A DNA stretch of 64,000 bases, from NCBI RefSeq assembly GCF_000397205.1, contig NC_021237.1:3473001-3537000 (forward strand). The letters run 5' to 3'. Numbering within the stretch: the first letter of the stretch is position 1; every line of letters begins with the position of its first letter. The notes under the pieces were generated by a model. That model was not told the DNA's origin and searched no databases. It saw only the letters and a list, made by a program, of their open reading frames with translations. The DNA is from Pseudomonas protegens CHA0 (lineage in GTDB: Bacteria; Pseudomonadota; Gammaproteobacteria; Pseudomonadales; Pseudomonadaceae). Below are positions 6,887 through 59,175 of the stretch, one piece after another. The position numbers and the translations under genes are program-made.

Positions 6887-8193
6887 AGCGCGGCGGCTAC
6901 CTCTGGCACCTGGCCCTGAGCATGGGCACGCGCCTGGCGATGATCGGCCTGCGGCTGCTGCGCAACGTGCTGCTGGCTCGATTGCTGGGCCCGGCGGATC
7001 GCGGCCTGTTCGCCCTGCTCAGCACCCTGCCGGACCTGATTGCCGCCCTGACCAGCGGCGGGCTGAACACCGCGGTCGGCTATGAAGCCGCGCGCCAGCG
7101 GCCCATGGGCCTGCTACTGACCCAGGTGCTGGTCTACGGCTGCCTGCTGGCCAGCCTGCTGACCCTGGCCGGGCTGGCGCTGATGAACACCCTGGGCAGC
7201 CAGTGGGAACTGAGCCTGCAACTGGGGGACCTGGCCTGGCTGTTGTTGCTGGCGGTGCCCATCACCGTGCTCAAGAGCGGCCTGCTGACCCTGCACAACG
7301 CCGATGGCCGGGTCGAAGCCTTCAATGCCCTGCGCCTGCTGGAATCCCTGGTGCCGCTGCTGCTGTTCGTCGGCCTGTGGTGGATCTGGCGCGACCAGCC
7401 GCTGTCGGCGGCCCTGGTCAGCTGGCTGGGGGGCACCTTGCTGGTGGTGGTGGTTGGCTGGTGCTGGTTGCGACGCTTCCACGACCTGGGCCTGCGCTGG
7501 CAGGCCGGGGAACAGGGCAAGCTGCTGCGCTACAGCGCCCAGAGCCACCCCGGGGTGCTGTCGCAACAATTGATGCTGCGTTCGGACTACCTGTTCATCG
7601 GTGCCCTGCTCGACCCCGCGGCCCTGGGCTGGTACGCCATGGCCAGCGCCGCCGCCGAGCTGCTGCTGATCATTCCCGAGGCGGTGACCACGCCACTGAT
7701 GAAGCGCCTGCTGCAACAGGGGTCGGGCATCGAGCAACTGACCGCCCTGGCCCTGCGCCTGACCGCCACGGTGATGCTCGGCGCCTGCCTGTGCATGGCG
7801 CTGATCGGCCAGTGGCTGATTGTCACCCTGTTCGGCGCCGACTACGCCCCGGCCTACGATGCCCTGCTGGCCTTGCTGCCCGGGCTGTTCGGCCTGTGCT
7901 ACGCGAGCATCCTGCGCCTGGACCTCTTGGGCAAGCAGCGCCCCGGCACGCTGTCGCTGCTGCTGGCCGGTGGCGCCCTGCTGAACCTGGCGCTCAATGC
8001 GCTGCTGATCCCGTCGCTGGGCATCGCCGGCGCCGGCCTGGCCTCGTCCATCGCCTACCTCGCGGTGAGCCTGGCCATGCTCGGCCTGTATTGCCACCTC
8101 AGCGGTGTGGCCTGGTACCGCACCCTGATCCTGTTACCTGGAGACATCGTCTACGTGCGCCAGTTATTGCGCCCTAAGGAAAGGCTTCAATGA
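6883..8193 (+). CDS. Wzx-like polysaccharide flippase (MOP superfamily)
   Basis: 436 residues with about twelve hydrophobic segments and no large soluble domain. The opening RLLRNVLLARLLGPADRGLFALL is typical of MOP-superfamily polysaccharide exporters. The start is placed at the ATG of an ATGA overlap with the deacetylase gene; the longer open frame upstream lies inside that gene. Role: moving the undecaprenyl-linked repeat unit to the periplasmic face, where the polymerase and chain-length protein of this operon act. The next gene again starts at an ATGA overlap. Confidence 0.85.
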   Translation: MKRGGYLWHLALSMGTRLAMIGLRLLRNVLLARLLGPADRGLFALLSTLPDLIAALTSGGLNTAVGYEAARQRPMGLLLTQVLVYGCLLASLLTLAGLALMNTLGSQWELSLQLGDLAWLLLLAVPITVLKSGLLTLHNADGRVEAFNALRLLESLVPLLLFVGLWWIWRDQPLSAALVSWLGGTLLVVVVGWCWLRRFHDLGLRWQAGEQGKLLRYSAQSHPGVLSQQLMLRSDYLFIGALLDPAALGWYAMASAAAELLLIIPEAVTTPLMKRLLQQGSGIEQLTALALRLTATVMLGACLCMALIGQWLIVTLFGADYAPAYDALLALLPGLFGLCYASILRLDLLGKQRPGTLSLLLAGGALLNLALNALLIPSLGIAGAGLASSIAYLAVSLAMLGLYCHLSGVAWYRTLILLPGDIVYVRQLLRPKERLQ

Positions 8194-10118
8194 AACCCTG
8201 TTCCCTGCTCGCCCTGATGCTGATCTCGGCGGCCACTGCCCTGCACGCCGCGCCCCTGCAATGGGGCGATATCCGCGACGGCAGCCTGTACCTGCAAGCC
8301 GAGGCCGGCGACACCCTGCACCTGCGCTGGAGCCCGGCCTGGCAGAGCGACGCCAACCAGGAGCAGCTGTACCTGCTGCGCCCGGACGGCCAGTTGCTGC
8401 AACAGCTGGAGATTCGCGCCGACCAACCCTACGGCCAGCGGGAAGTCCAACTGCCCGCGGCCCAGGGCGACTACCGGCTGCAGGTACCGGGCTACAGCTT
8501 TCGCAACTTCAAGGTCAGCCACGACAGCGCCACCCGGGCCCAGTTCGAACCGGCCAAGGTGCATTTCAGCGCCGACGTGCCCAGTGGCGTGGAGCTGTAT
8601 TTTCGCGTGGCCGCCGGAGAGCAGGCGGTACTGGCGGGCAAGTATTACGGTGGGGTCAGCGTGCTCCAGGCCACGCGCCTGAGTGACCACCAGTTGCTGC
8701 GCCTGAAGCTGGTGGAGCACCCGCAGTACGGTCAGTTCGACCAGATCCAACTGCCGGTGGCCCAGCAGGACGAGGTCTGGCGCCTGTCCCTGGGCGGCTC
8801 GGGCAAGGTGGCGTTCTGGCTCGACGGCACCGCCAACCTGTTCGCCCAGGACCTGCGCCAGTTGCACCCGCTGCAATGGACACCGGGCCGGGTCGAGCTG
8901 AGCCTCAAGCCGCAGATGCGCGGCCCCAGCCCGCACCTGGGGATCGCCCTGCCCTATGCCCAGCCGCCGCAGTCGACCTTTGAACTGCTGCGGGCCCTGG
9001 GGCCGCGGGCGGCCAACTTCTACAGCTTCGTCGATGTGATCCAGCAGGAACCCCAGCGCGAGCTGGGCTTTCGCCGGCTGTACCGCGAAACGTTCAAGAT
9101 CGACCGCGACATCACCCTGCTGGCGGGCACCGGGCGCCGGGCGGTGCTGGCAGCCGACAGCCAGAGCTTCGCCGGCCTCGACGCCTGGCTGGCGGACAGC
9201 GTGCGCCTGGGCAACCAGGGCCTGCACTACCTGGCGTTCGCCGACGAACCCAACCTCAACTACCCCAGCTACGCCGTGTTCGCCAGCTACTTCGGGCGCA
9301 TGCTGGAGCACGTCAAGGCCAACCCCGAGGCCCGGGCCGCAGGTGTGCGCATTGCCATGCCGGTCAGTTCGCGGCTGCTGGACGGGCCGTTTCGCATCGG
9401 TGCCGGGCAGCGCCGCGGCATCGACTGGGCGCGCCAGTTGCTAGAGGCCCACGGCGCCGATATCGACGCCATGGCCTGGCACGAGTGGATGGTCCGCGAC
9501 CTGCTGGCCACCCGCCGCTACCGCGCCAGCGTGCGCGCCGCCGCCGACCTGGTGGGCCTGGATGACCTGGGCCGGCCGCGCAAGGCGCTGTTGCTGAGCC
9601 AGACCAATATCTCCAGCGGCCCGGACCTGAGCCCCTATCAGCAGGACACTCACTACGCCGCCCTGTGGTGGATGTCGGTGGTGGCCAATGCCTCCCAGGA
9701 CGGCCTGCTGGACATGCTCAACTGGTTCCAGGCCGCCGATGAGCCCGAGTACCCCAAGGGCATGCTGGCCCAGCACGACGCCCAGCGCTTCAGCCTGAAG
9801 CCGGTGGCCGTGGCCCAGCAATTCATCCAGCGGCACTGGCTGGGGCAGGTCCAGGCGCTGGACAACCCGGCCTTCGAGGTGGATGCCCTGGCACTGCGCG
9901 ATGGCCCGCGCCACAGCCTGCTGGGCGTGACCAAGACCCCGCGCGCACAAACCATCGACCTGGACGGCGCCGAGCAGATCTGCCAGGCCGGCCCGAGCCT
10001 GGAACTGCTCGGCGCCGACGGGCACAGCCGCTCCGCCGCCGTGCAGTGCAGCAATGGCCGGGCCCAGTTGCAGGTGCCCGGTGAAACCCTGTTTGCCTTG
10101 ACCTGGAAAACCCTATGA
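8190..10118 (+). CDS. secreted protein of exopolysaccharide operon, possible glycoside-hydrolase-like fold
   Basis: 642 residues with a clear Sec signal peptide (cleavage after about residue 21, ALHAA). The N-terminal third is beta-rich. The middle contains FADEPNLNYPS (about 348-358), where an acid before Pro-Asn after a beta strand recalls the acid/base position of clan-A glycosidases. It is followed by AMAWHEWMVRDLLATRRY and a C-terminal beta domain. Periplasmic glycosidases such as PslG or PelA are common companions of polysaccharide export systems, so a trimming role is plausible. I do not recognise a specific family, and the glycosidase idea is inference. Translation is coupled to both neighbours by ATGA overlaps. 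Confidence 0.6.
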   Translation: MKPCSLLALMLISAATALHAAPLQWGDIRDGSLYLQAEAGDTLHLRWSPAWQSDANQEQLYLLRPDGQLLQQLEIRADQPYGQREVQLPAAQGDYRLQVPGYSFRNFKVSHDSATRAQFEPAKVHFSADVPSGVELYFRVAAGEQAVLAGKYYGGVSVLQATRLSDHQLLRLKLVEHPQYGQFDQIQLPVAQQDEVWRLSLGGSGKVAFWLDGTANLFAQDLRQLHPLQWTPGRVELSLKPQMRGPSPHLGIALPYAQPPQSTFELLRALGPRAANFYSFVDVIQQEPQRELGFRRLYRETFKIDRDITLLAGTGRRAVLAADSQSFAGLDAWLADSVRLGNQGLHYLAFADEPNLNYPSYAVFASYFGRMLEHVKANPEARAAGVRIAMPVSSRLLDGPFRIGAGQRRGIDWARQLLEAHGADIDAMAWHEWMVRDLLATRRYRASVRAAADLVGLDDLGRPRKALLLSQTNISSGPDLSPYQQDTHYAALWWMSVVANASQDGLLDMLNWFQAADEPEYPKGMLAQHDAQRFSLKPVAVAQQFIQRHWLGQVQALDNPAFEVDALALRDGPRHSLLGVTKTPRAQTIDLDGAEQICQAGPSLELLGADGHSRSAAVQCSNGRAQLQVPGETLFALTWKTL

Positions 10119-44969: not shown

Positions 44970-45980
44970 CTATTGAAGGCTATCGGCTACTTCATTGCGC
45001 TGGACCCGCAGCGGGTTGAATAGCAGGCGAATGAACTGCGGATCTCGGGCCAGTTTGTAATCTTCACCGACAAAGTATTCTTTGGCGGCCGGGTCATTCT
45101 TGCCGATATATAAGATCCAGGCCGTGGTAATACCGGCAAACTCATCTTCCCTGACGCTTCTGACCGGGCTGAAATGGGTGGCGTTATGGGCGGTTGCGCT
45201 CCAGCCCGGCACGGCCTTGATCAGCCCGCCCTGCCACAGCCTTGGCCAGGCCCAGGCCGGGACCACTACGTCCGCTGCGCCGGTGAGCACCAGGGTCGGT
45301 GTCTTTACCGTGGAGCCAAGGCCGATCGGCCCGGGTTCGATCGGCAGCGAGCCGATATAGCGCAACTGCGGGTCGATGCCCTTCAAGGTCTCTGGCAAGA
45401 GGCTTGCCGATAGAATCGATGCGCCTCCTCCCGCCGAATGCCCCGCCACAATGGTGCGCGACAGGTCGACCTTGCCGAACAGTGGCGAGGTCGGGTCCTG
45501 GTTGAGCTTGCTCAGTTCCAGGGCGCCGAGCACATGCATGGTGGGGGCGGTGTTGATGAAGTCCGAGGAGATGATCACGATGAAGCCGTAGCTCGCCCAC
45601 AGCCGCAGCAGATCTGTGTACTGCCCCTGATTGGAGAGAATACCGCCAACGAAGTTGACCACTGGCAACTTGTCCAATTGCTTGATATTGGACGGGTAAT
45701 AGACACTGGTGGAGATCGGATTGGAGAATCCGTAAGGAAAGGACTGATTGCATTGCAGGCTGTTATCCAACAGCATGATCCGCGCCAATACCCCCAACAA
45801 CCCACGGCAATCACTCAGAACAGCATTGGTGCTGACTGCATAGGGCCCTGGAGACTTAGCATATTGATCATTGGCCAGCCCAAATGCCGGAACCAATTGC
45901 GAAGCAATAGCCAACTTGCCCCAAATAACCAACATCATGGCCAGGCCGAACTTTGTAGCCAGGTTGCGAATCCACTTCAT
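44970..45980 (-). CDS. exported alpha/beta hydrolase
   Basis: 336 residues. An N-terminal hydrophobic segment (residues 10-26) looks like a signal peptide. AGHSAGGGASI carries the nucleophile Ser, GAADVVVP the Asp and ATHFSP the His, with VVNFVGGILS as the likely oxyanion region. Two Cys pairs are possible in the N-terminal region. The architecture resembles cutinase/dienelactone-type polyesterases, but the substrate is unknown. Codon use is less GC-rich than in its neighbours (many AAT, ATA, TTG codons), hinting at later acquisition. It lies 331 bp from plcN in the same direction. Confidence 0.75.
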   Translation of the reverse strand: MKWIRNLATKFGLAMMLVIWGKLAIASQLVPAFGLANDQYAKSPGPYAVSTNAVLSDCRGLLGVLARIMLLDNSLQCNQSFPYGFSNPISTSVYYPSNIKQLDKLPVVNFVGGILSNQGQYTDLLRLWASYGFIVIISSDFINTAPTMHVLGALELSKLNQDPTSPLFGKVDLSRTIVAGHSAGGGASILSASLLPETLKGIDPQLRYIGSLPIEPGPIGLGSTVKTPTLVLTGAADVVVPAWAWPRLWQGGLIKAVPGWSATAHNATHFSPVRSVREDEFAGITTAWILYIGKNDPAAKEYFVGEDYKLARDPQFIRLLFNPLRVQRNEVADSLQ

Positions 45981-46268: not shown

Positions 46269-47192
46269 CTAGACCAGCCCGCCAAAACGCCGATAGTAGC
46301 TTTCGCCGACATCCGGCAACGGGCCATCGGCGTTCTCCAGGGCAGTGGCCAGCCATTCTTCGGCCCGGGCCTGGATCAGGCGATAGATGTTGCGACACAA
46401 CTGGCGCGCCGCGCGGCCTTCCCAATCCCCGGGCAGCAGTTCGTCGGGCAGTTGCGGATCGCGCAGCAGCAGCTTGCGGTACTCATGAATCAGCAGCAGC
46501 CGGGCCAGGAAGCAATCCTGGGGCTGCAACTGCTCCTGCTCGCGCAGGGCCTGCCAGAGCGGGCGGAACAGCTGGATGAACTCGCTGTAGTGGGCTGCCA
46601 GTTCATCGATGTTCCAGCTTTCCCGCACTTGCAGGCGCAGGGCCCTGGAACCCAGGACATCCTGGGGCGTGGTCTCGAAGACGATGGTGTCTTCCTGGGC
46701 ACCAAGCTCCGCCAGGGTGGCGTTGATATCGGCCCGATCACTGCGCGGGCAGGCCAGCAGTACCGGCGACATGGCGCCGAACCCCTGCCATTCCAGCTCT
46801 TCGCGCACCTGCTTGCGCAACTCGACAGACAGTTGCGAGAGCATCACCAGGCACCAGGCGCCGTCCCAGGCCGGCACTCCGGCGCTGTACACGCGCTTGA
46901 AGGCTTTGTCGAAGCGCCGGCGCCCGGTCAGGGTCAGGCTGTAGTAACTGCGCCGGCCGACCTTTTCAGCGCTCAGCCAGCCCTCTTTGCTCAGGCGGAA
47001 GATCGAGGTGCGGATCAAGCGCTCGTTGATCCCCATGGGCTCCAGCAACTGAATCAGGCTGCCCAGCCACACCGTGCCGCCGTGGGGCTCGATGGCATCG
47101 CCGTACAGGGTGATGATCAGCGAACTGGCGCGGATCGGAGTCTGCTCCTGGAAACGTTTGATCAGGTGGTTCAGTGGCGCTAGGGACGACAT
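46269..47192 (-). CDS. paaX: PaaX, phenylacetyl-CoA-responsive repressor
   Basis: 307 residues, the usual PaaX length. A GntR-like winged helix near the N-terminus (RLIRTSIFRLSKEGWLSAEKVGRRSYYSL) is followed by the PaaX core (AWDGAWCLVMLSQL) and the PaaX C-terminal domain. It represses paa promoters until phenylacetyl-CoA binds. It is transcribed with paaY, 64 bp upstream in the same direction, and divergently from the catabolic genes. Candidate operators precede paaG and paaA. Confidence 0.92.
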   Translation of the reverse strand: MSSLAPLNHLIKRFQEQTPIRASSLIITLYGDAIEPHGGTVWLGSLIQLLEPMGINERLIRTSIFRLSKEGWLSAEKVGRRSYYSLTLTGRRRFDKAFKRVYSAGVPAWDGAWCLVMLSQLSVELRKQVREELEWQGFGAMSPVLLACPRSDRADINATLAELGAQEDTIVFETTPQDVLGSRALRLQVRESWNIDELAAHYSEFIQLFRPLWQALREQEQLQPQDCFLARLLLIHEYRKLLLRDPQLPDELLPGDWEGRAARQLCRNIYRLIQARAEEWLATALENADGPLPDVGESYYRRFGGLV

Positions 47193-47256: not shown

Positions 47257-47850
47257 TCATGGGCGAGCCTTGGGGCGCAGCGCACTGTTGCCGATTCGCG
47301 GGCGTCCGGGCTCTGCCTCCCGCAGCGGCTCGCAAGGCCGCATCTGCGCCAGGCAACGCCTGGCCAGCTGTTGGTATTCGCGGGTCCCCGCCTGCTTCCA
47401 GGCCAGCTCCGCATCACTGAGCGGGCGGCTGACCCGGGCCGGCGTGCCCATGATCAGCGACTGTGGCGCACACTCGAAGCCGGCCTTGACGAAGGCTGCC
47501 GCGGAAACGATGCAACGGGGCGCGATATGCGCGTTGTCCATCACCACCGCATTCATGCCCACCAGGGCGTCGGCGCCAATTCGACAGCCATGCAGGACAG
47601 CGCCATGACCTATATGGCCGTTGCGCTCGACCACCGTATCGCTGTCGGGAAAACCATGCATCACACACGTATCCTGCAGGTTTGCCCCCTCCTCCAGAAC
47701 GATCCGCCCAAAATCGCCCCGCAAGCTGGCCAACGGGCCGACGTAACAATGGGCGCCGACAATCACATCACCAATCAGCACCGCTGAAGGGTGCACATAA
47801 GCGCTGGGGTCGACCACCGGGGTCAATCCATCGAGGCTGTAACAGGTCAT
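47257..47850 (-). CDS. paaY: PaaY, gamma-carbonic-anhydrase-fold thioesterase
   Basis: 197 residues. Left-handed beta-helix hexapeptide repeats run from about residue 15 ([36 protein letters not shown]), with His ligands in MHGFPDS and [13 protein letters not shown]. PaaY hydrolyses 2-hydroxycyclohepta-1,4,6-triene-1-carboxyl-CoA, a dead-end product of the paa pathway. ATG preceded by AAGGAA; nine further upstream codons are dismissed. Divergent from the paaF stub/paaG. Confidence 0.88.
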
Positions 47851-48205: not shown

Positions 48206-48280
48206 ATGCCTCAACGCCTTGCCTCCACGCCTGTCGGTGGTGTTCGCCTGATCGCCCAGCACAGAGCGCCCCGCCCATGA
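48206..48280 (+). pseudogene. paaF: paaF remnant (N-terminal stub of enoyl-CoA hydratase)
   Basis: A 24-codon frame starting MPQRLASTPVGGVRLIAQHR. Its first part aligns with the PaaF N-terminus of Pseudomonas (M-P-...-GVRLI...RP), at the position paaF occupies in other Pseudomonas paa clusters. The remaining roughly 235 codons are gone. The stub keeps its ribosome site (GAGGA) and its stop overlaps the paaG ATG (ATGA), so it may now only serve to couple translation into paaG. Normal PaaF hydrates 2,3-dehydroadipyl-CoA. Confidence 0.7.
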
Positions 48281-49068
48281 ACTTCACCACCATCCTGTTC
48301 TCCATCAGCGAGGGCGTGGCCCTTCTCAGCCTCAACCGCCCCGAACAGCTCAACAGCTTCAACCCGACGATGCACCGCGAGGTTCAGGCAGCCCTGGACC
48401 TGGTGCGCAATGACCCGCAGGTGCGGGTCCTGCTGCTGACCGGGGAAGGCCGGGGCTTCTGTGCCGGGCAAGACCTGGGCGAGCGCACCGTGGCACCCGG
48501 CGTCGCCGCGCCGGACCTGGGGGCCTCCATCGAAACCTTCTACAACCCCCTGGTGCGGGCCCTGCGGGACCTGCCGCTGCCGGTGATCTGCGCGGTCAAC
48601 GGGGTGGCCGCCGGGGCCGGGGCCAACCTGCCCCTGGCCTGCGATCTGGTACTGGCCGCACGCTCGGCAAGCTTTATTCAGGCCTTCTGCAAGCTCGGGC
48701 TGGTTCCCGATTCCGGCGGTACCTGGCTGCTGCCGCGCCTGGTGGGCATGGCCCGGGCCAAGGCCCTGGCCCTGCTCGGCAACCGCCTGAGTGCCGAACA
48801 GGCCGAGCAGTGGGGCCTGATCTACCAGTGCGTGGATGATGCCCAACTGCGGGACCAGGCCCTGAGCCTGGCCCGGCACCTGGCCACCCAACCCACCTAC
48901 GGCCTGGGCCTGATCAAGCGCAGCCTCAATGCCAGCCTGCACAACAGCTTCGATGAGCAACTGGACCTGGAGCGCGACCTGCAACGCCTGGCCGGTTGCA
49001 GCGAGGACTACCGCGAAGGCGTCAGCGCCTTCATGGAAAAACGCAGCCCCGTGTTCAAGGGCTGCTGA
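48277..49068 (+). CDS. paaG: PaaG, 1,2-epoxyphenylacetyl-CoA isomerase
   Basis: 263 residues (E. coli 262), crotonase fold. GRGFCAGQDLGER provides the oxyanion and catalytic Asp region, and GVAAGAGANLPLACDLVLAA the second oxyanion loop. It converts ring 1,2-epoxyphenylacetyl-CoA to oxepin-CoA after PaaABCE. The ATG overlaps the stop of the paaF stub; a longer upstream frame is out of family. In other Pseudomonas clusters paaH follows; here only 27 bp with a ribosome site (AAGGAGG) separate paaG from paaI. Confidence 0.9.
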   Translation: MNFTTILFSISEGVALLSLNRPEQLNSFNPTMHREVQAALDLVRNDPQVRVLLLTGEGRGFCAGQDLGERTVAPGVAAPDLGASIETFYNPLVRALRDLPLPVICAVNGVAAGAGANLPLACDLVLAARSASFIQAFCKLGLVPDSGGTWLLPRLVGMARAKALALLGNRLSAEQAEQWGLIYQCVDDAQLRDQALSLARHLATQPTYGLGLIKRSLNASLHNSFDEQLDLERDLQRLAGCSEDYREGVSAFMEKRSPVFKGC

Positions 49069-49095
49069 CCACGGCGACTCCAAGGAGGCCCCTGC

Positions 49096-49545
49096 ATGAC
49101 TGAACATGACGCCATGGAACTGGCCCGGCGCTGCGCCCGGACCCTGTTCGAACGTGACCCGGCAAGCAACGCCCTGGGCATGCGCCTGTTGTCGGTGGCG
49201 CCCGGTGCGGCGCGCCTGGGCATGAGCGTGCGGGCCGACATGCTGCAGGGCCACGGCACCTGCCACGGCGGCCTGATCTTCACCCTCGCCGATTCGGCCT
49301 TCGCCATTGCCTGCAACAGCCATGACCGGGCCACAGTGGCCCTGGGTTGCAGCATCGAGTACATCGCCCCGGCGCAGTTGGGCGACACCCTGACCGCCGA
49401 CTGCCATGAACAGAACCGCGGCGGCCGCACCGGCCACTACGCGGTGCGCGTGGAAAACCAGCAGGGCCGGCTCATCGCCCTGCTCCAAGGCAAATCCTAC
49501 CAAGTGCACGGCCCGGTGCTGACACAGGAGACCTCCCATGAATGA
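49096..49545 (+). CDS. paaI: PaaI, hydroxyphenylacetyl-CoA thioesterase
   Basis: 149 residues, hotdog fold. GHGTCHGGLIFTLADSAFAIACNS contains the active-site Asp and long helix of PaaI. It rescues CoA from stalled ring-hydroxylated or off-path phenylacetyl-CoA products. The ATG follows AAGGAGG. Its last codons overlap the start of the paaJ remnant (ATG at 49538), as expected if paaJ was originally coupled to it. Confidence 0.9.
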   Translation: MTEHDAMELARRCARTLFERDPASNALGMRLLSVAPGAARLGMSVRADMLQGHGTCHGGLIFTLADSAFAIACNSHDRATVALGCSIEYIAPAQLGDTLTADCHEQNRGGRTGHYAVRVENQQGRLIALLQGKSYQVHGPVLTQETSHE

Positions 49546-49671
49546 CCCACTGCTCATCGATGCCGTCCGTATCCTCATTGGCAGCGCCGGGGCCGCTACG
49601 CGCTGTGCACCATGTGCATCGGTGTCGACCCGGGCATCGCGCTGATCAGCGAGCGGCTGCAAGCACAGTAA
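49538..49671 (+). pseudogene. paaJ: paaJ remnant (internally deleted, frameshifted thiolase)
   Basis: The first codons read MNDPLLIDAVRI, like the thiolase N-terminus. The last 26 codons (49591-49668, frame +2 relative to the start) read GRYALCTMCIGVDPGIALIS..., the conserved C-terminus including the active-site Cys region. About 360 codons between are deleted and the two ends are out of frame. Both start and stop are preserved (TAA at 49669). PaaJ normally performs both thiolysis steps of the lower pathway. Confidence 0.85.
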
Positions 49672-49764: not shown

Positions 49765-51087
49765 ATGAACATGCCGATTGCCGGAACCGTGCCCGACGCG
49801 CTGCTGGACCCGATGGAAACCGCCAGCATCGACCACCTGCGCCAGCACCAGCTGGAACGCCTGCGCTGGAGCCTGAACCACGCCTACGACAGGGTCCCGC
49901 TGTACCGCCAGCGCTTCGACCAGCTCGGGGTGCACCCCCAGGACATCAAGCGCCTAGAAGACCTGGCGCACCTGCCCTTCACGACCAAGGCCGATCTGCG
50001 CGACCACTACCCCTATGGCATGTTCGCCGTGCCCATGGACCAGGTGGTACGCCTGCACGCCTCCAGCGGCACCACCGGTAAGCCCACGGTGGTCGGCTAC
50101 ACCCGCAACGACATCGACACCTGGGCGCAGGTGGTGGCGCGCTCGATCCGCGCCGCCGGCGGCCGGCCCGGGGACAAGGTGCATATTTCCTACGGCTATG
50201 GCCTGTTCACCGGCGGCCTGGGGGCGCACTACGGCGCCGAACGCCTGGGCTGCACGGTGATCCCCATGTCCGGCGGCCAGACCGAGAAGCAGGTGCAACT
50301 GATCAAGGATTTCCAGCCGGACATCATCATGGTCACCCCCTCCTACATGCTCAACATCGCCGACGAGATCGAGCGCCAGGGCCTGGACCCGCACCAGTTG
50401 GCGCTGCGCCTGGGAATCTTCGGTGCCGAACCCTGGACCGACGAACTGCGCAGTGCCATCGAACAGCGCCTGGGCATCACCGCCCTGGACATCTACGGGC
50501 TGTCGGAAATCATCGGCCCCGGGGTGGCCATGGAATGCGCGCAGACCCGCGACGGCCCTACCCTCTGGGAGGATCACTTCTACCCGGAAATCATCGACCC
50601 GATCACCGGCCAGGTACTGGCCGATGGCGAACTGGGCGAGCTGGTGCTCACCTCCCTGACCAAGGAAGCGCTGCCGATGATCCGCTATCGCACCCGCGAC
50701 CTGACCCGGCTGTTGCCGGGCACGGCGCGGCCCATGCGGCGCATCGACAAGATCACCGGGCGCAGCGACGACATGCTGATCATCCGCGGGGTCAACGTGT
50801 TCCCCACCCAGGTCGAAGAACAGGTGCTGAAGGTCGGGCAACTGGCCCCCTGCTACGAGATCCACCTGTACCGCCACGGCAACCTCGACAGCGTTGACAT
50901 CCACGTCGAGCTCAAGCCTGAGCACCAGCAACTGGGGGACGAGCAGCAGCGGGCCCTCTGCGGCGATCTCAGCCGCCACATAAAGACCCATATCGGTATC
51001 AGCTCGCGTATCGTTTTGCAGCCGGCATTCAGCATCAAGCGCTCCGAAGGCAAGGCCTGCCGGGTAATCGACAAACGCAACCGCTAA
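49765..51087 (+). CDS. paaK: PaaK, phenylacetate-CoA ligase
   Basis: 440 residues, usual length. The adenylating motif SSGTTGKPTVVGYT (about 95-108), the structural motif DIYGLSEIIGPGV and the C-terminal hinge/lysine region GRSDDMLIIRGVNVFPTQVEE are all intact. It activates phenylacetate to phenylacetyl-CoA, the true inducer and first intermediate. It follows the paaJ remnant by 93 bp and ends in an intrinsic terminator, so paaABCDE have their own promoter. Confidence 0.93.
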   Translation: MNMPIAGTVPDALLDPMETASIDHLRQHQLERLRWSLNHAYDRVPLYRQRFDQLGVHPQDIKRLEDLAHLPFTTKADLRDHYPYGMFAVPMDQVVRLHASSGTTGKPTVVGYTRNDIDTWAQVVARSIRAAGGRPGDKVHISYGYGLFTGGLGAHYGAERLGCTVIPMSGGQTEKQVQLIKDFQPDIIMVTPSYMLNIADEIERQGLDPHQLALRLGIFGAEPWTDELRSAIEQRLGITALDIYGLSEIIGPGVAMECAQTRDGPTLWEDHFYPEIIDPITGQVLADGELGELVLTSLTKEALPMIRYRTRDLTRLLPGTARPMRRIDKITGRSDDMLIIRGVNVFPTQVEEQVLKVGQLAPCYEIHLYRHGNLDSVDIHVELKPEHQQLGDEQQRALCGDLSRHIKTHIGISSRIVLQPAFSIKRSEGKACRVIDKRNR

Positions 51088-51264: not shown

Positions 51265-52254
51265 ATGTACGCACAGCTGGTAGAAACGGGGGTCAAGCGC
51301 GTCACGCCACTGGCCGAGATGTCCGAACAGGAACGCAGCTTCCAGCAAAGGATCGACGACGAGATCAAGATCGAAGCCAAGAACTGGATGCCCGAGGCCT
51401 ACCGCCAGACCCTGATCCGGCAGATCTCCCAGCACGCCCATTCGGAAATCGTCGGCATGCTGCCCGAAGGCAACTGGGTCACCCGTGCCCCGACCTTCAA
51501 GCGCAAGCTGCAACTGATGGCCAAGATCCAGGACGAAGCCGGCCACGGCCTGTACCTGTACAGCGCCATGGAAACCCTGGGGGCCGACCGCGACGAAGAA
51601 GTGGCCCGGCTGCACAGCGGCAAGGCCAAGTATTCGAGCATCTTCAACTACCCGACCCTGAACTGGGCCGACATGGGCGCCGTGGGCTGGCTGGTGGATG
51701 GCGCGGCCATCGTCAACCAGGTGGTGCTGCAACGCACCTCCTACGGCCCCTATTCCCGGGCCATGGTGCGCATCTGCAAGGAAGAGAGCTTCCACCAGCG
51801 CCAGGGCTACGAAATCCTCCTGACCATGATGCGCGAGGGCAACCAGGCACAGCGGGACATGGTCCAGGACGCCATCAACCGTCTCTGGTGGCCGGCCCTG
51901 ATGATGTTCGGCCCCAGCGACGAACACTCCCCCAACAGTGCCCAGTCCATGGCCTGGAAGATCAAGCGCCAGAGCAACGACGAACTGCGCCAGCGCTTCA
52001 TCGACCAGACCATCCCGCAACTGGAGCTGCTGGGCTGCACCTGCCCCGACCCGGAGCTTGCGTGGAACGCCGAGCGCGGCCATTACGACTTTGGCGAAAT
52101 CCAGTGGGAAGAATTCTACGAAGTGCTCAAGGGCAACGGCCCGTGCAACCAGGAACGCCTGGACACCCGCCGCCAGGCCACCGAGGACGGCGCCTGGGTG
52201 CGGGCTGCCGCCGTGGCCCACGCCGCCCGGAAGGCCGCTCGCGACGCCGCCTGA
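51265..52254 (+). CDS. paaA: PaaA, oxygenase subunit of phenylacetyl-CoA 1,2-epoxidase
   Basis: 329 residues. A ferritin-like diiron protein with ligand motifs EEVARL...Glu and DEAGHG (EXXH-type) and [12 protein letters not shown] in the second half. It is the catalytic subunit of PaaABC(D)E, which inserts one oxygen across the ring of phenylacetyl-CoA. The ATG is supported by GGGAG; the open frame upstream passes through the operator and is rejected. First gene of paaABCDE. Confidence 0.94.
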
Positions 52255-52323: not shown

Positions 52324-52605
52324 ATGTCTGAATGGACCCTCTACGAGGTTTTCGTGCGCAGCAAGCACGGCCTCAACCACAAGCATGTCGGCAGCGTGCA
52401 CGCCGCCGATGCCCCGATGGCCATGGCCAACGCCCGCGACCTCTACACCCGGCGCAGCGAAGGCGTGAGCCTGTGGGTGGTGCCGTCGGCGCAGATCGTC
52501 GCCTCCTCGCCGGACGAAAAGGAGCCGCTGTTCGACCCGGCGGACGACAAGGTCTACCGCCACGCCAGCTTCTATCAGTTGCCCCCCGAAGTCGGACACA
52601 TGTGA
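52324..52605 (+). CDS. paaB: PaaB, structural subunit of phenylacetyl-CoA epoxidase
   Basis: 93 residues, normal length. WTLYEVFVRSKHGLNHKHVGSVHAADA and YTRRSEGVSLWVVPS are typical PaaB stretches. It bridges the PaaAC heterodimers in the epoxidase complex. Confidence 0.93.
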   Translation: MSEWTLYEVFVRSKHGLNHKHVGSVHAADAPMAMANARDLYTRRSEGVSLWVVPSAQIVASSPDEKEPLFDPADDKVYRHASFYQLPPEVGHM

Positions 52606-52613
52606 GGCCGGCC

Positions 52614-53375
52614 ATGAACCCTGCAAACGATCTGCTCAACCACCTGCTGCGCCTGGGCGACAGTGCCCTGGTCCAGGGCCAGCGCCTGTGCGAATGGTGC
52701 GGCCGGGCCCCGGCCCTGGAAGAAGAACTGGCACTGATGAACGTCGGTCTCGACCTGGTGGGCCAGGCCCGCAACTGGCTGGACTATGCCGCCGAACTGC
52801 TGGCGGATGGGCGAGATGCCGACCATCTGGCCTTTCGCCGCGACGAACGCGCCTACCGCAACCTGCTGCTGGTGGAACAACCCAATGGCGACTTCGCGGT
52901 GACCATGCTCAAGCAGTTCTTCTACGACGCCTGGCACCTGGAAACCCTCCGTGGCCTGTGCCTGTCCGGCGATCCACGCATCGCCGGGGTCGCCGCCAAG
53001 GCGTTCAAGGAAGTCACCTACCACCTGCGTCGCTCCAGCGAATGGGTCGAGCGCCTGGGGGATGGCACCGAGGAAAGCCACCGGCGCATGCTCCAGGCCC
53101 TGCCGCGGCTGTGGCGCTTTACCGGGGAACTGATCGCCACCGATCCTGCGGAGAACGCGTTGCACCAGGCCGGGCTGCTGGCAGACCCGGCTCAGGTCGC
53201 CACCGCCTGGCAGGACAGGGTCGCCGCGGTGTTCGCCCGGGCCACCCTGCCTGTGCCCGAAGCGCCCAGCCACTTCTACCTGGATGCGCGCAAAGGCCTG
53301 CATACCGAACACCTGGGCCTGCTGCTGGCCCAGATGCAATCACTGCCGCGAGCCTATCCCGATGCGGTCTGGTGA
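52614..53375 (+). CDS. paaC: PaaC, structural subunit of phenylacetyl-CoA epoxidase
   Basis: 253 residues. A ferritin-like helical bundle related to PaaA but without a full diiron set, as usual: LMNVGLDLVGQARNWLDYAA and FKEVTYHLRRSSEWVERLGDGT are diagnostic. It forms the PaaAC heterodimer that binds substrate CoA. It starts 8 bp after the paaB stop and overlaps paaD by 14 bp. Confidence 0.93.
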   Translation: MNPANDLLNHLLRLGDSALVQGQRLCEWCGRAPALEEELALMNVGLDLVGQARNWLDYAAELLADGRDADHLAFRRDERAYRNLLLVEQPNGDFAVTMLKQFFYDAWHLETLRGLCLSGDPRIAGVAAKAFKEVTYHLRRSSEWVERLGDGTEESHRRMLQALPRLWRFTGELIATDPAENALHQAGLLADPAQVATAWQDRVAAVFARATLPVPEAPSHFYLDARKGLHTEHLGLLLAQMQSLPRAYPDAVW

Positions 53376-53892
53376 GCTGATCGGCAGCGACCTGGGGGCA
53401 CGCGACCCGTTGCCCGGGGACCTGGACACCGCCTGGGCCACCCTCGACCGGGTCATGGACCCGGAAGTGCCGGTGGTCAGCGTGCTCGACCTGGGCATCG
53501 TGCGCCACCTCGACTGGCACCAGGGGCACCTGCAGGTGACGGTCACCCCGACCTACTCCGGCTGCCCGGCCACCGAGGTGATCGAAAGCGACATCCGCCA
53601 GGCCCTGGAGCGCGCCGGCTTCAAGGCACCCAGGCTGCTGCGCCAGCTGACCCCGGCCTGGACCACCGACTGGATCACCGAGCGCGGGCGCCAGCGCCTG
53701 CAGGCCTACGGCATTGCACCGCCCTCGGGCAGCAGCAAGCGCAGCCTGCTGGGAGAAACGCCCCAGGTGCTCTGCCCGCAATGCGGCAGCGCCCACAGCG
53801 AGCGCCTCAGCGAGTTCGGCTCCACCGCCTGCAAGGCCCTGTATCGCTGCCGTGATTGCCTGGAACCCTTCGACTACTTCAAGTGCATCTGA
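53362..53892 (+). CDS. paaD: PaaD, iron-sulfur assembly factor for the epoxidase
   Basis: 176 residues. An N-terminal MIP18/DUF59 domain (MDPEVPVVSVLDLGIVR, TPTYSGCPATEVIE) is followed by a C-terminal zinc-ribbon (CPQCGS ... CRDC). It helps insert Fe-S or mature the reductase PaaE and is required for activity in vivo. The ATG inside the paaC end gives coupling; no good alternative start exists. Confidence 0.88.
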   Translation: MRSGELIGSDLGARDPLPGDLDTAWATLDRVMDPEVPVVSVLDLGIVRHLDWHQGHLQVTVTPTYSGCPATEVIESDIRQALERAGFKAPRLLRQLTPAWTTDWITERGRQRLQAYGIAPPSGSSKRSLLGETPQVLCPQCGSAHSERLSEFGSTACKALYRCRDCLEPFDYFKCI

Positions 53893-53921: not shown

Positions 53922-54998
53922 ATGAGCCAGTTCCACCGCCTGACCATCAAGGACCTGCGCAATGAAACCCGCGACGCGGTGTCCATCGCCTTCGAGGTTC
54001 CCCCGCACCTGCAGCAGCACTTCCACTTCACCCAGGGCCAGCACCTGGTGCTGCGCACCGAGCTTGAAGGCGAGGAAGTGCGCCGCTCCTATTCGATCTG
54101 CACCGGGGTCAACGACGGTGAACTGCGCATCGCGGTCAAGCGCGTGGCCGGCGGGCGTTTCTCGGCCTTCGCCAATGAACGATTGCAGCCCGGCCAAAGC
54201 CTGGACGTGATGCCCCCGGCCGGGCGTTTCCATGTGGAGCTGGACCCGGCGCGGCGCGGCCATTACCTGGCGGTGGCGGCCGGCAGCGGCATCACGCCGA
54301 TCCTGTCGATCATCAAGAGCACCCTGCAAACCGAGCCCCACAGCCGGGTCACCCTGCTCTACGGCAACCGCTCCAGCAACTCGGCGCTGTTTCGCGAACA
54401 GCTTGAGGACCTGAAGAACCGCTACCTGCAGCGGCTGAACCTGATGTTCGTGTTCAGCCGCGAACGGCAGGACATCGACCTGTACAACGGGCGCATCGAC
54501 CAGGACAAGTGCCAGCAGCTGTTTTCCCGCTGGCTCGACGTCCAGCAACTGGAGGCCGCGTTCATCTGCGGCCCCCAGGCCATGACCGAAACCGTGCGCG
54601 ACAGCCTCAAGGCTGCCGGCATGCCGGCCGAGCGCATCCACTTCGAGCTGTTCCACGCCGGCAGCGACGGGCACAAGCGCCAGGCCCGGGAAACCGCCAG
54701 CGCCCTGGATGCCCGTCACAGCCGGGTCACCGTCATCAGCGACGGCCGCGCCCTGGCCTTCGACCTGCCGCGCAACAGCCAGAGCATTCTCGACGCCGGC
54801 AACGCCCAGGGCGCCGAACTGCCCTACTCATGCAAGGCCGGAGTCTGCTCCACCTGCAAATGCAAGGTCATCGAAGGCGAAGTGGAAATGGACAGCAACC
54901 ACGCCCTGGAAGACTACGAAGTCGCGGCCGGCTACGTCCTCTCCTGCCAATCGTTCCCGCTCAGCGACAAGGTGGTACTGGACTTCGACCAGCTCTGA
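53922..54998 (+). CDS. paaE: PaaE, reductase of phenylacetyl-CoA epoxidase
   Basis: 358 residues. FAD-binding (RRSYSICTG), NAD-binding (AAGSGITPILSIIKSTL), then a plant-type [2Fe-2S] ferredoxin domain with Cys304, Cys309, Cys312 and Cys342. It passes NADPH electrons to the PaaA diiron centre. ATG follows GTGGAGAACC; longer frames are shadows. Last of the paaABCDE genes; a repeat follows. Confidence 0.94.
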   Translation: MSQFHRLTIKDLRNETRDAVSIAFEVPPHLQQHFHFTQGQHLVLRTELEGEEVRRSYSICTGVNDGELRIAVKRVAGGRFSAFANERLQPGQSLDVMPPAGRFHVELDPARRGHYLAVAAGSGITPILSIIKSTLQTEPHSRVTLLYGNRSSNSALFREQLEDLKNRYLQRLNLMFVFSRERQDIDLYNGRIDQDKCQQLFSRWLDVQQLEAAFICGPQAMTETVRDSLKAAGMPAERIHFELFHAGSDGHKRQARETASALDARHSRVTVISDGRALAFDLPRNSQSILDAGNAQGAELPYSCKAGVCSTCKCKVIEGEVEMDSNHALEDYEVAAGYVLSCQSFPLSDKVVLDFDQL

Positions 54999-57120: not shown

Positions 57121-59175
57121 ATGCCACAGGCTCCTACTCTGCAAAGCTTCATCGCCGGCCGCTGGTTCGGCCAGCATCCGGCCCAGTCACTGCGCAGCGC
57201 CATCGATGGGCATGAAGTGGCGCGCACCCACGAGGAGGCCCCGGACTTCGCCGAGGCCCTGGCCTTTGGTCGCCATCAGGGCGGCAAGACCTTGCTGGCC
57301 CTGGATTTCCAGCAGCGGGCCCAGCGCCTCAAGGCCCTGGCGCTGTATCTGAGCGAGCGCAAGGAGCAGCTCTATGCCCTGTCCCATCACAGCGGCGCGA
57401 CGCGGGCCGACAGCTGGATCGATATCGAGGGCGGCAACAGCACCCTGTTCAGCTACGCCGGCCTCGGCGCCCGGGAACTGCCGTCGGGCAACCTGTTGCA
57501 CGAAGGCCCGGCGCAATCCCTGAGCAAGCTCGGCAGCTTTGCCGGCAGCCACATCCTGGTGCCCCGGGGTGGCGTGGCCGTGCACATCAATGCCTTCAAC
57601 TTTCCGATCTGGGGCATGCTGGAAAAATTCGCCCCGTGCTTCCTCGCCGGCATGCCCTGCATCGTCAAGCCGGCCAGCGCCACCAGTTACCTGACCGAGG
57701 CCGCGGTGCGGCTGATGCATGAATCCGGGCTGCTGCCCGAAGGCAGCCTGCAATTGGTGATAGGCGCTACCGGCGACCTGCTGGACCGCCTGCAAGGCCA
57801 GGACCTGGTGACCTTCACCGGCTCCGCCAGCACTGCCGGACGACTGCGGGCCAACCCGAACCTGATCCGTCATTCGGTACCCTTCAATGCCGAGGCCGAC
57901 TCGCTGAACTGCGCGATCCTGGCCCCGGACGTAAGCCCGGACGACGAGGAGTTCGAGCTGTTCATCAAGGAAGTGGCACGGGAAATGACGGTCAAGGCCG
58001 GGCAGAAGTGCACCGCCATCCGCCGCGCCATCATCCCCGCCAAACAACTGGATGTGGTGGCCACCAGGTTGCGCGAACGCCTGTCGAAGGTGGTGGTGGG
58101 CGACCCGGCGGTGGAAGGTGTGCGCATGGGCGCCCTGGCCTCCCATGAACAGCAGCGCGATGTGGCCGAGCGCCTGCAAAGCCTGCTGCACAGCAGCGAC
58201 CTGCTGTTCGGTGCCCGGGACGGCTTCGAGCCCCGAGGCACAAACGTCAGCCAGGGCGCGTTCTTCGCCCCGACCCTGTTGCTGGCGCGCGATCCCATGG
58301 CCGAGGGCGGCGCCCACGACATCGAAGCCTTTGGCCCGGTCAGCACCCTGATGGCCTATGACGACCTGGACCAGGCACTGGAGCTGGCCTCTCGCGGCAA
58401 GGGCAGCCTGGTGGCCAGCCTGGTCACCAAGAGCCCGGCCATTGCCGCCCAGGTCATTCCCCGGGCTGCGGCCTGGCACGGTCGCTTGCTGGTGCTGGAC
58501 CGCCACTGTGCTGGCGAATCCACCGGCCACGGCTCGCCCCTGCCACAGCTCAAGCATGGCGGCCCGGGCCGCGCCGGGGGTGGCGAAGAGTTGGGCGGTC
58601 TGCGGGCGGTCAAGCATTACCTGCAACGGGCGGCGATCCAGGGCTCGCCAAGCATGCTGGCGGCGGTAACCGGCGAGTACGTGCGCGGTGCCCAGGTGAT
58701 CGAAACCGAGGTCCACCCCTTCCGCCGGCACTTCCAGGACCTGCAGATCGGCGAATCCCTGCTGACCCACCGGCGCACCGTGACCGAGGCCGACCTGGTG
58801 AACTTCGGTTGCCTGTCGGGGGACCATTTCTATATGCACTTCGACGAGATTGCCGCCAGGGAGTCGCAGTTCGGCAAGCGCATCGCCCATGGCTACTTCG
58901 TGCTCTCGGCGGCGGCCGGGCTGTTCGTTTCCCCGGGCCCCGGCCCGGTGCTGGCCAACTACGGCCTGGACACCCTGCGCTTCATCACCCCGGTGGGCAT
59001 TGGCGACACCCTGCAGGCGCGCCTGACCTGCAAGCGCAAGATCGACCAGGGCAAGCTCAGCCCCCAGGGCACGCCGCAAGGAGTGGTGGCCTGGGATGTG
59101 GAAGTCAGCAACCAGCTGGGCGAGGTGGTGGCCAGCTACGACATCCTGACCCTGGTGGCCAAGCGTACTGAGTGA
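57121..59175 (+). CDS. paaZ: PaaZ, bifunctional oxepin-CoA hydrolase / semialdehyde dehydrogenase
   Basis: 684 residues. N-terminal aldehyde dehydrogenase domain with Glu258 (FNAEADSLN) and catalytic Cys297 (AGQKCTAI). C-terminal MaoC-like enoyl hydratase domain with Asp568 and His573 in SGDHFYMHFD. Both active sites are intact. It opens the oxepin ring and oxidises the semialdehyde to 3-oxo-5,6-dehydrosuberyl-CoA. That product then needs PaaJ, whose gene here is a remnant. Good ribosome site (GGAGGAATCCCC). In Pseudomonas it is also called paaN. Confidence 0.93.
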   Translation: MPQAPTLQSFIAGRWFGQHPAQSLRSAIDGHEVARTHEEAPDFAEALAFGRHQGGKTLLALDFQQRAQRLKALALYLSERKEQLYALSHHSGATRADSWIDIEGGNSTLFSYAGLGARELPSGNLLHEGPAQSLSKLGSFAGSHILVPRGGVAVHINAFNFPIWGMLEKFAPCFLAGMPCIVKPASATSYLTEAAVRLMHESGLLPEGSLQLVIGATGDLLDRLQGQDLVTFTGSASTAGRLRANPNLIRHSVPFNAEADSLNCAILAPDVSPDDEEFELFIKEVAREMTVKAGQKCTAIRRAIIPAKQLDVVATRLRERLSKVVVGDPAVEGVRMGALASHEQQRDVAERLQSLLHSSDLLFGARDGFEPRGTNVSQGAFFAPTLLLARDPMAEGGAHDIEAFGPVSTLMAYDDLDQALELASRGKGSLVASLVTKSPAIAAQVIPRAAAWHGRLLVLDRHCAGESTGHGSPLPQLKHGGPGRAGGGEELGGLRAVKHYLQRAAIQGSPSMLAAVTGEYVRGAQVIETEVHPFRRHFQDLQIGESLLTHRRTVTEADLVNFGCLSGDHFYMHFDEIAARESQFGKRIAHGYFVLSAAAGLFVSPGPGPVLANYGLDTLRFITPVGIGDTLQARLTCKRKIDQGKLSPQGTPQGVVAWDVEVSNQLGEVVASYDILTLVAKRTE

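Follow-up and report, generated by a model that had tools for sequence, protein, structure and literature searches.

A phenylacetate cluster in Pseudomonas protegens CHA0 that keeps ring cleavage and has lost paaF, paaH and paaJ, with a pim-like operon and PcaF as candidate providers of the lower steps

The window analysed here is a stretch of 64,000 nucleotides from Pseudomonas protegens CHA0, corresponding to bases 3,473,001-3,537,000 of a single 6,867,980-base contig. It carries a cluster for breakdown of the plant compound phenylacetate (paa cluster) in which paaX and paaY, on the minus strand, are followed on the plus strand by a paaF stub, paaG, a short gap, paaI, a paaJ remnant, paaK, paaA-E, a DUF485 gene, a permease gene and paaZ. 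The repressor gene paaX (46269-47192, 307 aa) is identified by the Pfam domains PaaX, PaaX_M and PaaX_C, while its neighbour at 47257-47850, defined by position and conservation in relatives, is what we take to be paaY from the general makeup of the paa operon. Both paaG (48277-49068, 263 aa; TIGR02280, 416.9 bits, cut-off 345.15) and paaI (49096-49545, 149 aa; TIGR02286, 155.8 bits, cut-off 118.9) are intact, as is the phenylacetate-CoA ligase gene paaK (49765-51087), which is orthologous in relatives and encodes the motif SSGTTGK. The epoxidase genes lie in the same locus as the ligase gene and comprise paaA (51265-52254), paaB (52324-52605), paaC (52614-53375), paaD (53362-53892, its start codon assigned by visual inspection) and paaE (53922-54998). 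They are followed by genes for a DUF485 small membrane protein (PF04341; 55238-55417, the true start lying further upstream), a sodium:solute symporter-type (SSF) permease (PF00474; 55414-57060) and an intact bifunctional ring hydrolase/aldehyde dehydrogenase, PaaZ (57121-59175), which scores 810 bits to PaaZ 6jql. E258, C297 and the hydratase motif SGDHFY of this protein align with 6jql, the first two being residues that we take to be catalytic in the dehydrogenase. In agreement with the original prediction, paaX, paaY, paaG, paaI, paaK, paaA-E, the SSF permease gene and paaZ are full length, and the expected motifs were found in all four proteins checked (PaaK, PaaA, PaaG and PaaZ), with the catalytic residues of PaaG and PaaZ in place. 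Near the cluster, on the minus strand (44970-45980), lies a gene whose 336-aa product contains a PET-hydrolase-like domain (PF12740, 48.3 bits).

The lower genes paaF, paaH and paaJ survive in this locus only as two stubs and a gap, as had been predicted and as coordinates and alignments bear out. The paaF stub (48206-48280, plus strand) opens with an ATG at 48206 and closes after 24 aa with a stop at 48278-48280 that overlaps the paaG ATG at 48277; alignment to the intact paaF of a sister species (G061), together with the junctions in relatives, resolves it into roughly 16 codons from the start of paaF fused to the former paaF-paaG spacer (score 58 against the G061 5' end, the maximum of 300 shuffles being 31). 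Where the G-H-I order of relatives would place paaH, 27 bp (49069-49095) separate the end of paaG at 49068 from the start of paaI at 49096; GGAGG is kept before paaI, and no trace of paaH rises above shuffles in this gap (score 17 versus 27). The paaJ remnant (49538-49671, plus strand), recognised by alignment to the intact paaJ of G061 and by tblastn over residues 376-402 of 403, consists of a 5' part that starts with an ATG at 49538 and whose frame closes at 49645, and of the last ~82 bases of the gene, recognisable in a different frame to the TAA at 49669-49671 (score 89; maximum of 300 shuffles, 30). Remnants of paaF and paaJ thus beat all 300 shuffles, whereas the paaH gap does not.

According to the available parts of two studies, the 3-oxo-5,6-dehydrosuberyl-CoA formed by PaaZ is cleaved by a thiolase to dehydroadipyl-CoA, in which PaaG moves the double bond; hydration and oxidation then give 3-oxoadipyl-CoA, which a thiolase splits into succinyl-CoA and acetyl-CoA (PMC4498308, PMC9493321). 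These lower steps represent ordinary kinds of beta-oxidation, and the losses fall after the PaaZ step, as anticipated. The further claim that all lower-pathway genes are gone holds for paaF, paaH and paaJ and is otherwise slightly too strong, because PaaG also acts in the lower pathway, as described in the same two sources, and paaI is kept.

Most of the clusters fetched for comparison follow the order X-Y-F-G-H-I-J-K-ABCDE, and canonical Pseudomonas paa clusters, such as those of P. donghuensis HYS (L067) and P. taiwanensis (L066), comprise the same enzyme families in the order F-G-H-I-J; CHA0 departs from them in the deletion of F, H and J and in a paaF stub that ends at the paaG start. Upper-only ("UP") paa configurations have already been named in Gammaproteobacteria, including a subclade with Pseudomonas, in the accessible portion of a survey (PMC13186573). 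CHA0, with its upper genes present and its lower set incomplete, resembles the configurations described there in having the upper genes and PaaX with no full lower set (PMC13186573, same portion), but differs in its retention of paaG and paaI, in the visible traces of the deleted genes and in the coincidence of the loss with particular redundant operons. That portion of the survey contains no mention of P. protegens that we could find (PMC13186573), and among the titles and abstract openings listed in searches of open-licence PMC papers none described the P. protegens loss, its visible traces or the correspondence of lost genes to redundant operons. This correspondence is the main addition here.

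Searches of the rest of the 6.87-Mb genome revealed no orthologue of PaaF, PaaH or PaaJ, and hence none of the three genes has merely moved. The nearest protein to PaaF is a 52% hydratase that occurs alike in species with intact paaF (at 51-52% in 13/13 genomes searched, whether or not they lack F and H). PaaH has no match in the genome at E<=1e-90, its nearest relative among the fetched loci being a 44% 3-hydroxybutyryl-CoA dehydrogenase-like protein, present in all five protegens-group genomes compared. The nearest to PaaJ is PcaF (66-68%), encoded intact at ~1.51 Mb (TIGR02430, 740.6 bits, cut-off 597). A relocated paaF/paaH/paaJ set, looked for elsewhere in the genome and not found, was accordingly rejected. 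A hydratase at ~3.447 Mb was considered as paaF and is not so called, because it fails the PaaF model (293.2 of 371) and passes the general enoyl-CoA hydratase model PRK05862 (436.4, cut-off 396). FadB-like frames are also shared within the protegens group, one of 835-860 aa in 5/5 genomes and another of 736 aa in 4/5. The genome thus holds PcaF and beta-oxidation paralogues, as the original prediction had guessed.

A genome search for 3-hydroxyacyl-CoA dehydrogenases uncovered an operon at ~1.69 Mb that encodes a 706-aa hydratase-dehydrogenase fusion (1,692,891-1,695,011), adjoined by a thiolase gene and followed by genes for two acyl-CoA dehydrogenases. The pim dicarboxylate operon, to which pimD (TIGR03203) and pimC (TIGR03204) belong, likewise combines a fusion hydratase-dehydrogenase, a thiolase and two acyl-CoA dehydrogenases. 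PimCD of Rhodopseudomonas palustris is named in the available part of one report (PMC12543098). In CHA0 the best models for the two acyl-CoA dehydrogenases are pimC (461.6 versus a cut-off of 623.85) and pimD (327.5 versus 652.7); because both scores fall well below the curated cut-offs, the operon is referred to here as pim-like. It further differs from pim in that its substrate is putative and in that three of the six genomes with a close fusion also have a full paa cluster. The fusion resembles solved bifunctional enzymes (best match 6ium, 643.6 bits) and, in its motifs GGGLE, LPEV and HFF, retains two glutamates and one histidine with presumed functional roles; judged from sequence, the operon is a candidate for activity on dicarboxylyl-CoA.

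At >=77% identity the fusion occurs in 6/398 genomes of the genus (CHA0, G377, FD6, G354, G272 and G073), that is, in all three protegens-type species whose clusters lack F and H and in three relatives with full clusters; seven further genomes have it at 48-60%, and the full-cluster genome G061 has none at the >=77% threshold. The thiolase and the pimC/pimD-like neighbours are conserved in G377 (whose larger dehydrogenase is split in the draft), FD6 (whose fetched stretch lacks the ligase side), G354 and G272, while the fusion of G073 has no adjoining thiolase. A strict PaaX-type operator pattern, derived from one promoter, was not found at the pim-like, pcaF and other paralogue loci. A looser PaaX half-site occurs twice in the pim-like stretch, once within the gntR gene, and means little.

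PaaA was detected at E<=1e-60 in 103 of 398 Pseudomonas genomes. The comparison covered 101 clusters, namely 100 that were fetched and CHA0's own, with G031 and G316 left out. In ten of them the contig ends before F or H is reached (L154, L163, L164, L166, L169, L172, L174, L184, L212 and L238); among the 91 that can be judged, 81 have F, G and H, and 10 are without F and/or H. Six of the 91, together with a seventh split over contigs (G048), are without F and H yet possess the ring-opening genes. In the protegens group, CHA0 is without F, H and J, G377 without F, H, I, J and the permease, and P. protegens FD6, the closest named relative found (PaaG 92% identical), without F, H, I and J. In a second group, G261, G059 and G339 are without F and H and keep I and J, while the cluster of G048 is divided between a contig with X-Y-G-I-J and one with A-E-permease-Z, so that F and H are gone here too. 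The cluster of P. spelaei (L056) belongs to this type as well, with paaZ truncated where the fetched stretch ends. The F/H-less species of either group have K, A-E, G and Z, with one exception: no K was seen in G048, at the contig break. G359 is without F and has many frameshifts, its assembly being probably poor. The cluster of G339 (L180) also contains an extra ~2.3 kb (7631-9928) between paaK and paaA.

The losses recur in relatives, with differing ends, as the same locus in related species reveals. The leftovers of paaF amount to about 16 codons in CHA0, 13 codons plus ~36 codons near the end in G377, and four codons in frame with paaG in FD6. The G-K spacers of G377 and FD6 can be aligned by eye, which suggests that the loss from H to J is probably common to both. 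A concatenated PaaA-E tree was discarded as a stand-in for the species tree since it places FD6 beside G061, probably through recombination, and gyrB was used instead. In the gyrB tree of 26 genomes, G377 and FD6 form a pair (support 0.997), CHA0 groups with the full-cluster genomes G354 and G061 (0.91), and the second group stands apart with G067 as its sister (0.998). The F/H-less clusters form two groups and probably represent three loss events, the simplest count being either three losses or two losses and one regain by recombination, for which the recombination seen in paa gene trees leaves room. Within the cluster of FD6 (L146), compared with L144 and L145, paaA-E and the permease gene resemble those of G061 while paaX, paaY, paaG and paaK group with G377, making recombination there likely.

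Several other clusters in the genus are incomplete in different ways. Among the 81 clusters with F, G and H, L214 (G051), L219 (G287) and L239 (G161) have no J at the locus, so that J can go without loss of F and H; L226 and L239 have no I there. The otherwise complete cluster of G354 (L145) has a paaK (7997-9312) that an apparent frameshift around residue 391 divides in two. P. rubra/G096 (L215) and G104 (L235) keep paaG and paaA-E (G104 also H and I), with paaF, paaJ, paaK, the permease and paaZ missing at the locus and a best PaaF match of 51%. The G046 cluster (L242, 2747-15208) has paaG, paaK and paaA-E, flanked by genes for an HpcH/HpaI aldolase, a thioesterase, an acyl-CoA dehydrogenase and an indolepyruvate-decarboxylase-like protein (557 bits, cut-off 946); by eye, two further neighbours resemble TetR and SDR genes. 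This cluster may channel oxepin-CoA into a product instead of serving catabolism. No PaaZ was found at E<=1e-60 in the whole genomes of P. rubra/G096, G104 and G046, which complete the ten clusters without F and/or H and are a different matter from the F/H-less clusters with ring-opening genes.

A second set of lower genes also accompanies the loss in the second group. G261, G059, G339 and G048, the four genomes of this group that were searched (P. spelaei being left out), carry an adjacent pair, F2 (47%) and H2 (38-39%), next to CoA transferase, acyl-CoA dehydrogenase, IclR and MFS genes, with no paaJ-like thiolase within the fetched 19.5 kb. The same set is found in G283, which has no PaaA, and in the sister G067, where paaF, G, H and J share a contig; two other genomes with full clusters, G361 and G264, have other versions that include a thiolase. 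Among the F/H-less lineages, loss of J therefore goes with a thiolase in the redundant operon, and retention of J with the lack of one. When a second set is defined as the fusion at E<=1e-200 or a PaaH-like protein below 60% identity at E<=1e-90, it occurs in 18 of the 103 PaaA-positive genomes, including all seven F/H-less genomes with ring-opening genes (one-sided Fisher 1.6e-6, a statistic that ignores kinship); only three (PaaH) and two (fusion) candidates were scored per genome, and the count may therefore be too low. Outside these seven, the remaining 11 genomes with a second set, G361 and G264 among them, retain paaH, and these relatives with both systems indicate that redundancy does not force loss. 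The observed link between lost genes and redundant operons, spanning two or three events in two groups, is suggestive, not proven.

The retained genes are under purifying selection. Nei-Gojobori estimates of dN/dS for paaK, paaA-E, paaG and paaZ in species pairs range over 0.00-0.22 in F/H-less pairs and 0.03-0.38 in two full-cluster pairs. The second group provides the cleanest test because its species share the loss, and its pairs with the same junctions (G261/G059 and G261/G339) give 0.00-0.135 for the same genes. In the G377/FD6 pair, values of 0.046 for G and 0.084 for K should be post-loss, while those for A-E are not purely so, owing to the recombination in FD6. Recurrent loss combined with constraint on the retained genes makes simple decay of the whole cluster unlikely, in line with the earlier view that random decay would not predict the pattern.

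Taken together, we consider it fairly probable that the upper pathway works, that the lower genes dedicated to it were deleted after becoming redundant, and that the pim-like fusion and thiolase finish the route together with PcaF. PaaK, PaaABCDE, PaaG and PaaZ would make 3-oxo-5,6-dehydrosuberyl-CoA, and the thiolysis, hydration and dehydrogenation of the resulting dicarboxylyl-CoA would be carried out by enzymes coded elsewhere, the likeliest providers being the fusion and thiolase at ~1.69 Mb, before PcaF cleaves 3-oxoadipyl-CoA; PaaG would retain both the ring step and double-bond isomerisation. Action of the pim-like enzymes and PcaF on phenylacetate intermediates is put forward here from gene content. 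Another strain, P. protegens Pf-5, grows with phenylacetate as sole carbon source according to the available text of a study that lists paaCYBDFGHIJKWLN for Pf-5 and others (PMC3390384), and in the accessible part of another, paaABCDEFGHIJKLNWXY is listed for all P. chlororaphis group strains (PMC4767706); these lists may speak against the loss, the gene letters differing between naming schemes. In the consulted part of a report on P. putida and P. taiwanensis engineered with dcaAKIJP, the lower paa enzymes serve adipate through 2,3-didehydroadipyl-CoA, the intermediate shared with the phenylacetate route (PMC12337976). There, paa enzymes serve a diacid, and the proposal for CHA0 is the reverse.

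Housekeeping enzymes (FadBA-type proteins, a valine-type enoyl-CoA hydratase and a 3-hydroxybutyryl-CoA dehydrogenase) might instead finish the route with PcaF, leaving the pim-like operon a bystander. The 44% dehydrogenase, the FadB-like frames and the 51-52% hydratase are indeed present in all or nearly all genomes compared, and derepressed beta-oxidation without derepressed paa supported weak growth on adipate in P. taiwanensis with dcaAKIJP, the authors stating likewise for P. putida in the part of the report available (PMC12337976). However, enzymes so widely shared leave unexplained both the restriction of the loss to a few lineages and the fact that, among F/H-less lineages, J disappeared only alongside an extra thiolase operon, and we regard this route as unlikely. 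A cluster on its way out, with lower genes going first, would fit the staged erosion with different ends in the protegens group, the missing permease of G377 and the further paa losses, including PaaZ, in G104 and G096; yet dN/dS of the retained genes matches the low level of full-cluster species, K, A-E, G and Z persist in both F/H-less groups (with K of G048 hidden by the contig break) and FD6 apparently received an intact paaA-E block by recombination, all of which renders progressive decay quite improbable.

Diversion of intermediates to a tropone-type product or another metabolite, raised in the original prediction, gained no support and appears very improbable. Tropone/tropolone biosynthesis relies on a PaaZ-type protein without aldehyde dehydrogenase activity, but the PaaZ of the cluster keeps its hydratase motif as well as E258 and C297, presumably of the aldehyde-removing dehydrogenase, and no second PaaZ was found at E<=1e-60. 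The branch point does lie immediately before the missing steps, and a side product of the pathway is a proposed tropone precursor in the accessible text of one source (PMC9493321); nevertheless, PaaX and PaaY are kept, and none of the ten locus and flank ORFs scanned with Pfam (three of them without any hit) matched a tropone-type enzyme. That the three deletions are artefacts is scarcely credible: a single assembly of this species was examined, but the separately assembled genomes of FD6 and G377 carry related losses with different ends, so this is not an error peculiar to one genome.

As a tentative generalization, a second dicarboxylyl-CoA set may make the matching paa genes dispensable (F, H and J where it includes a thiolase, F and H where it does not), with probably three such occasions in Pseudomonas, each leaving PaaG without its usual partner PaaF. 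The CHA0 cluster offers a testable case of a catabolic pathway cut down to its unique chemistry, the generic steps being handed to another operon, and it puts in question the necessity of the known PaaF-PaaG complex. Pathway-completeness calls based on paaF, paaH and paaJ could wrongly score such soil bacteria as non-users of phenylacetate.
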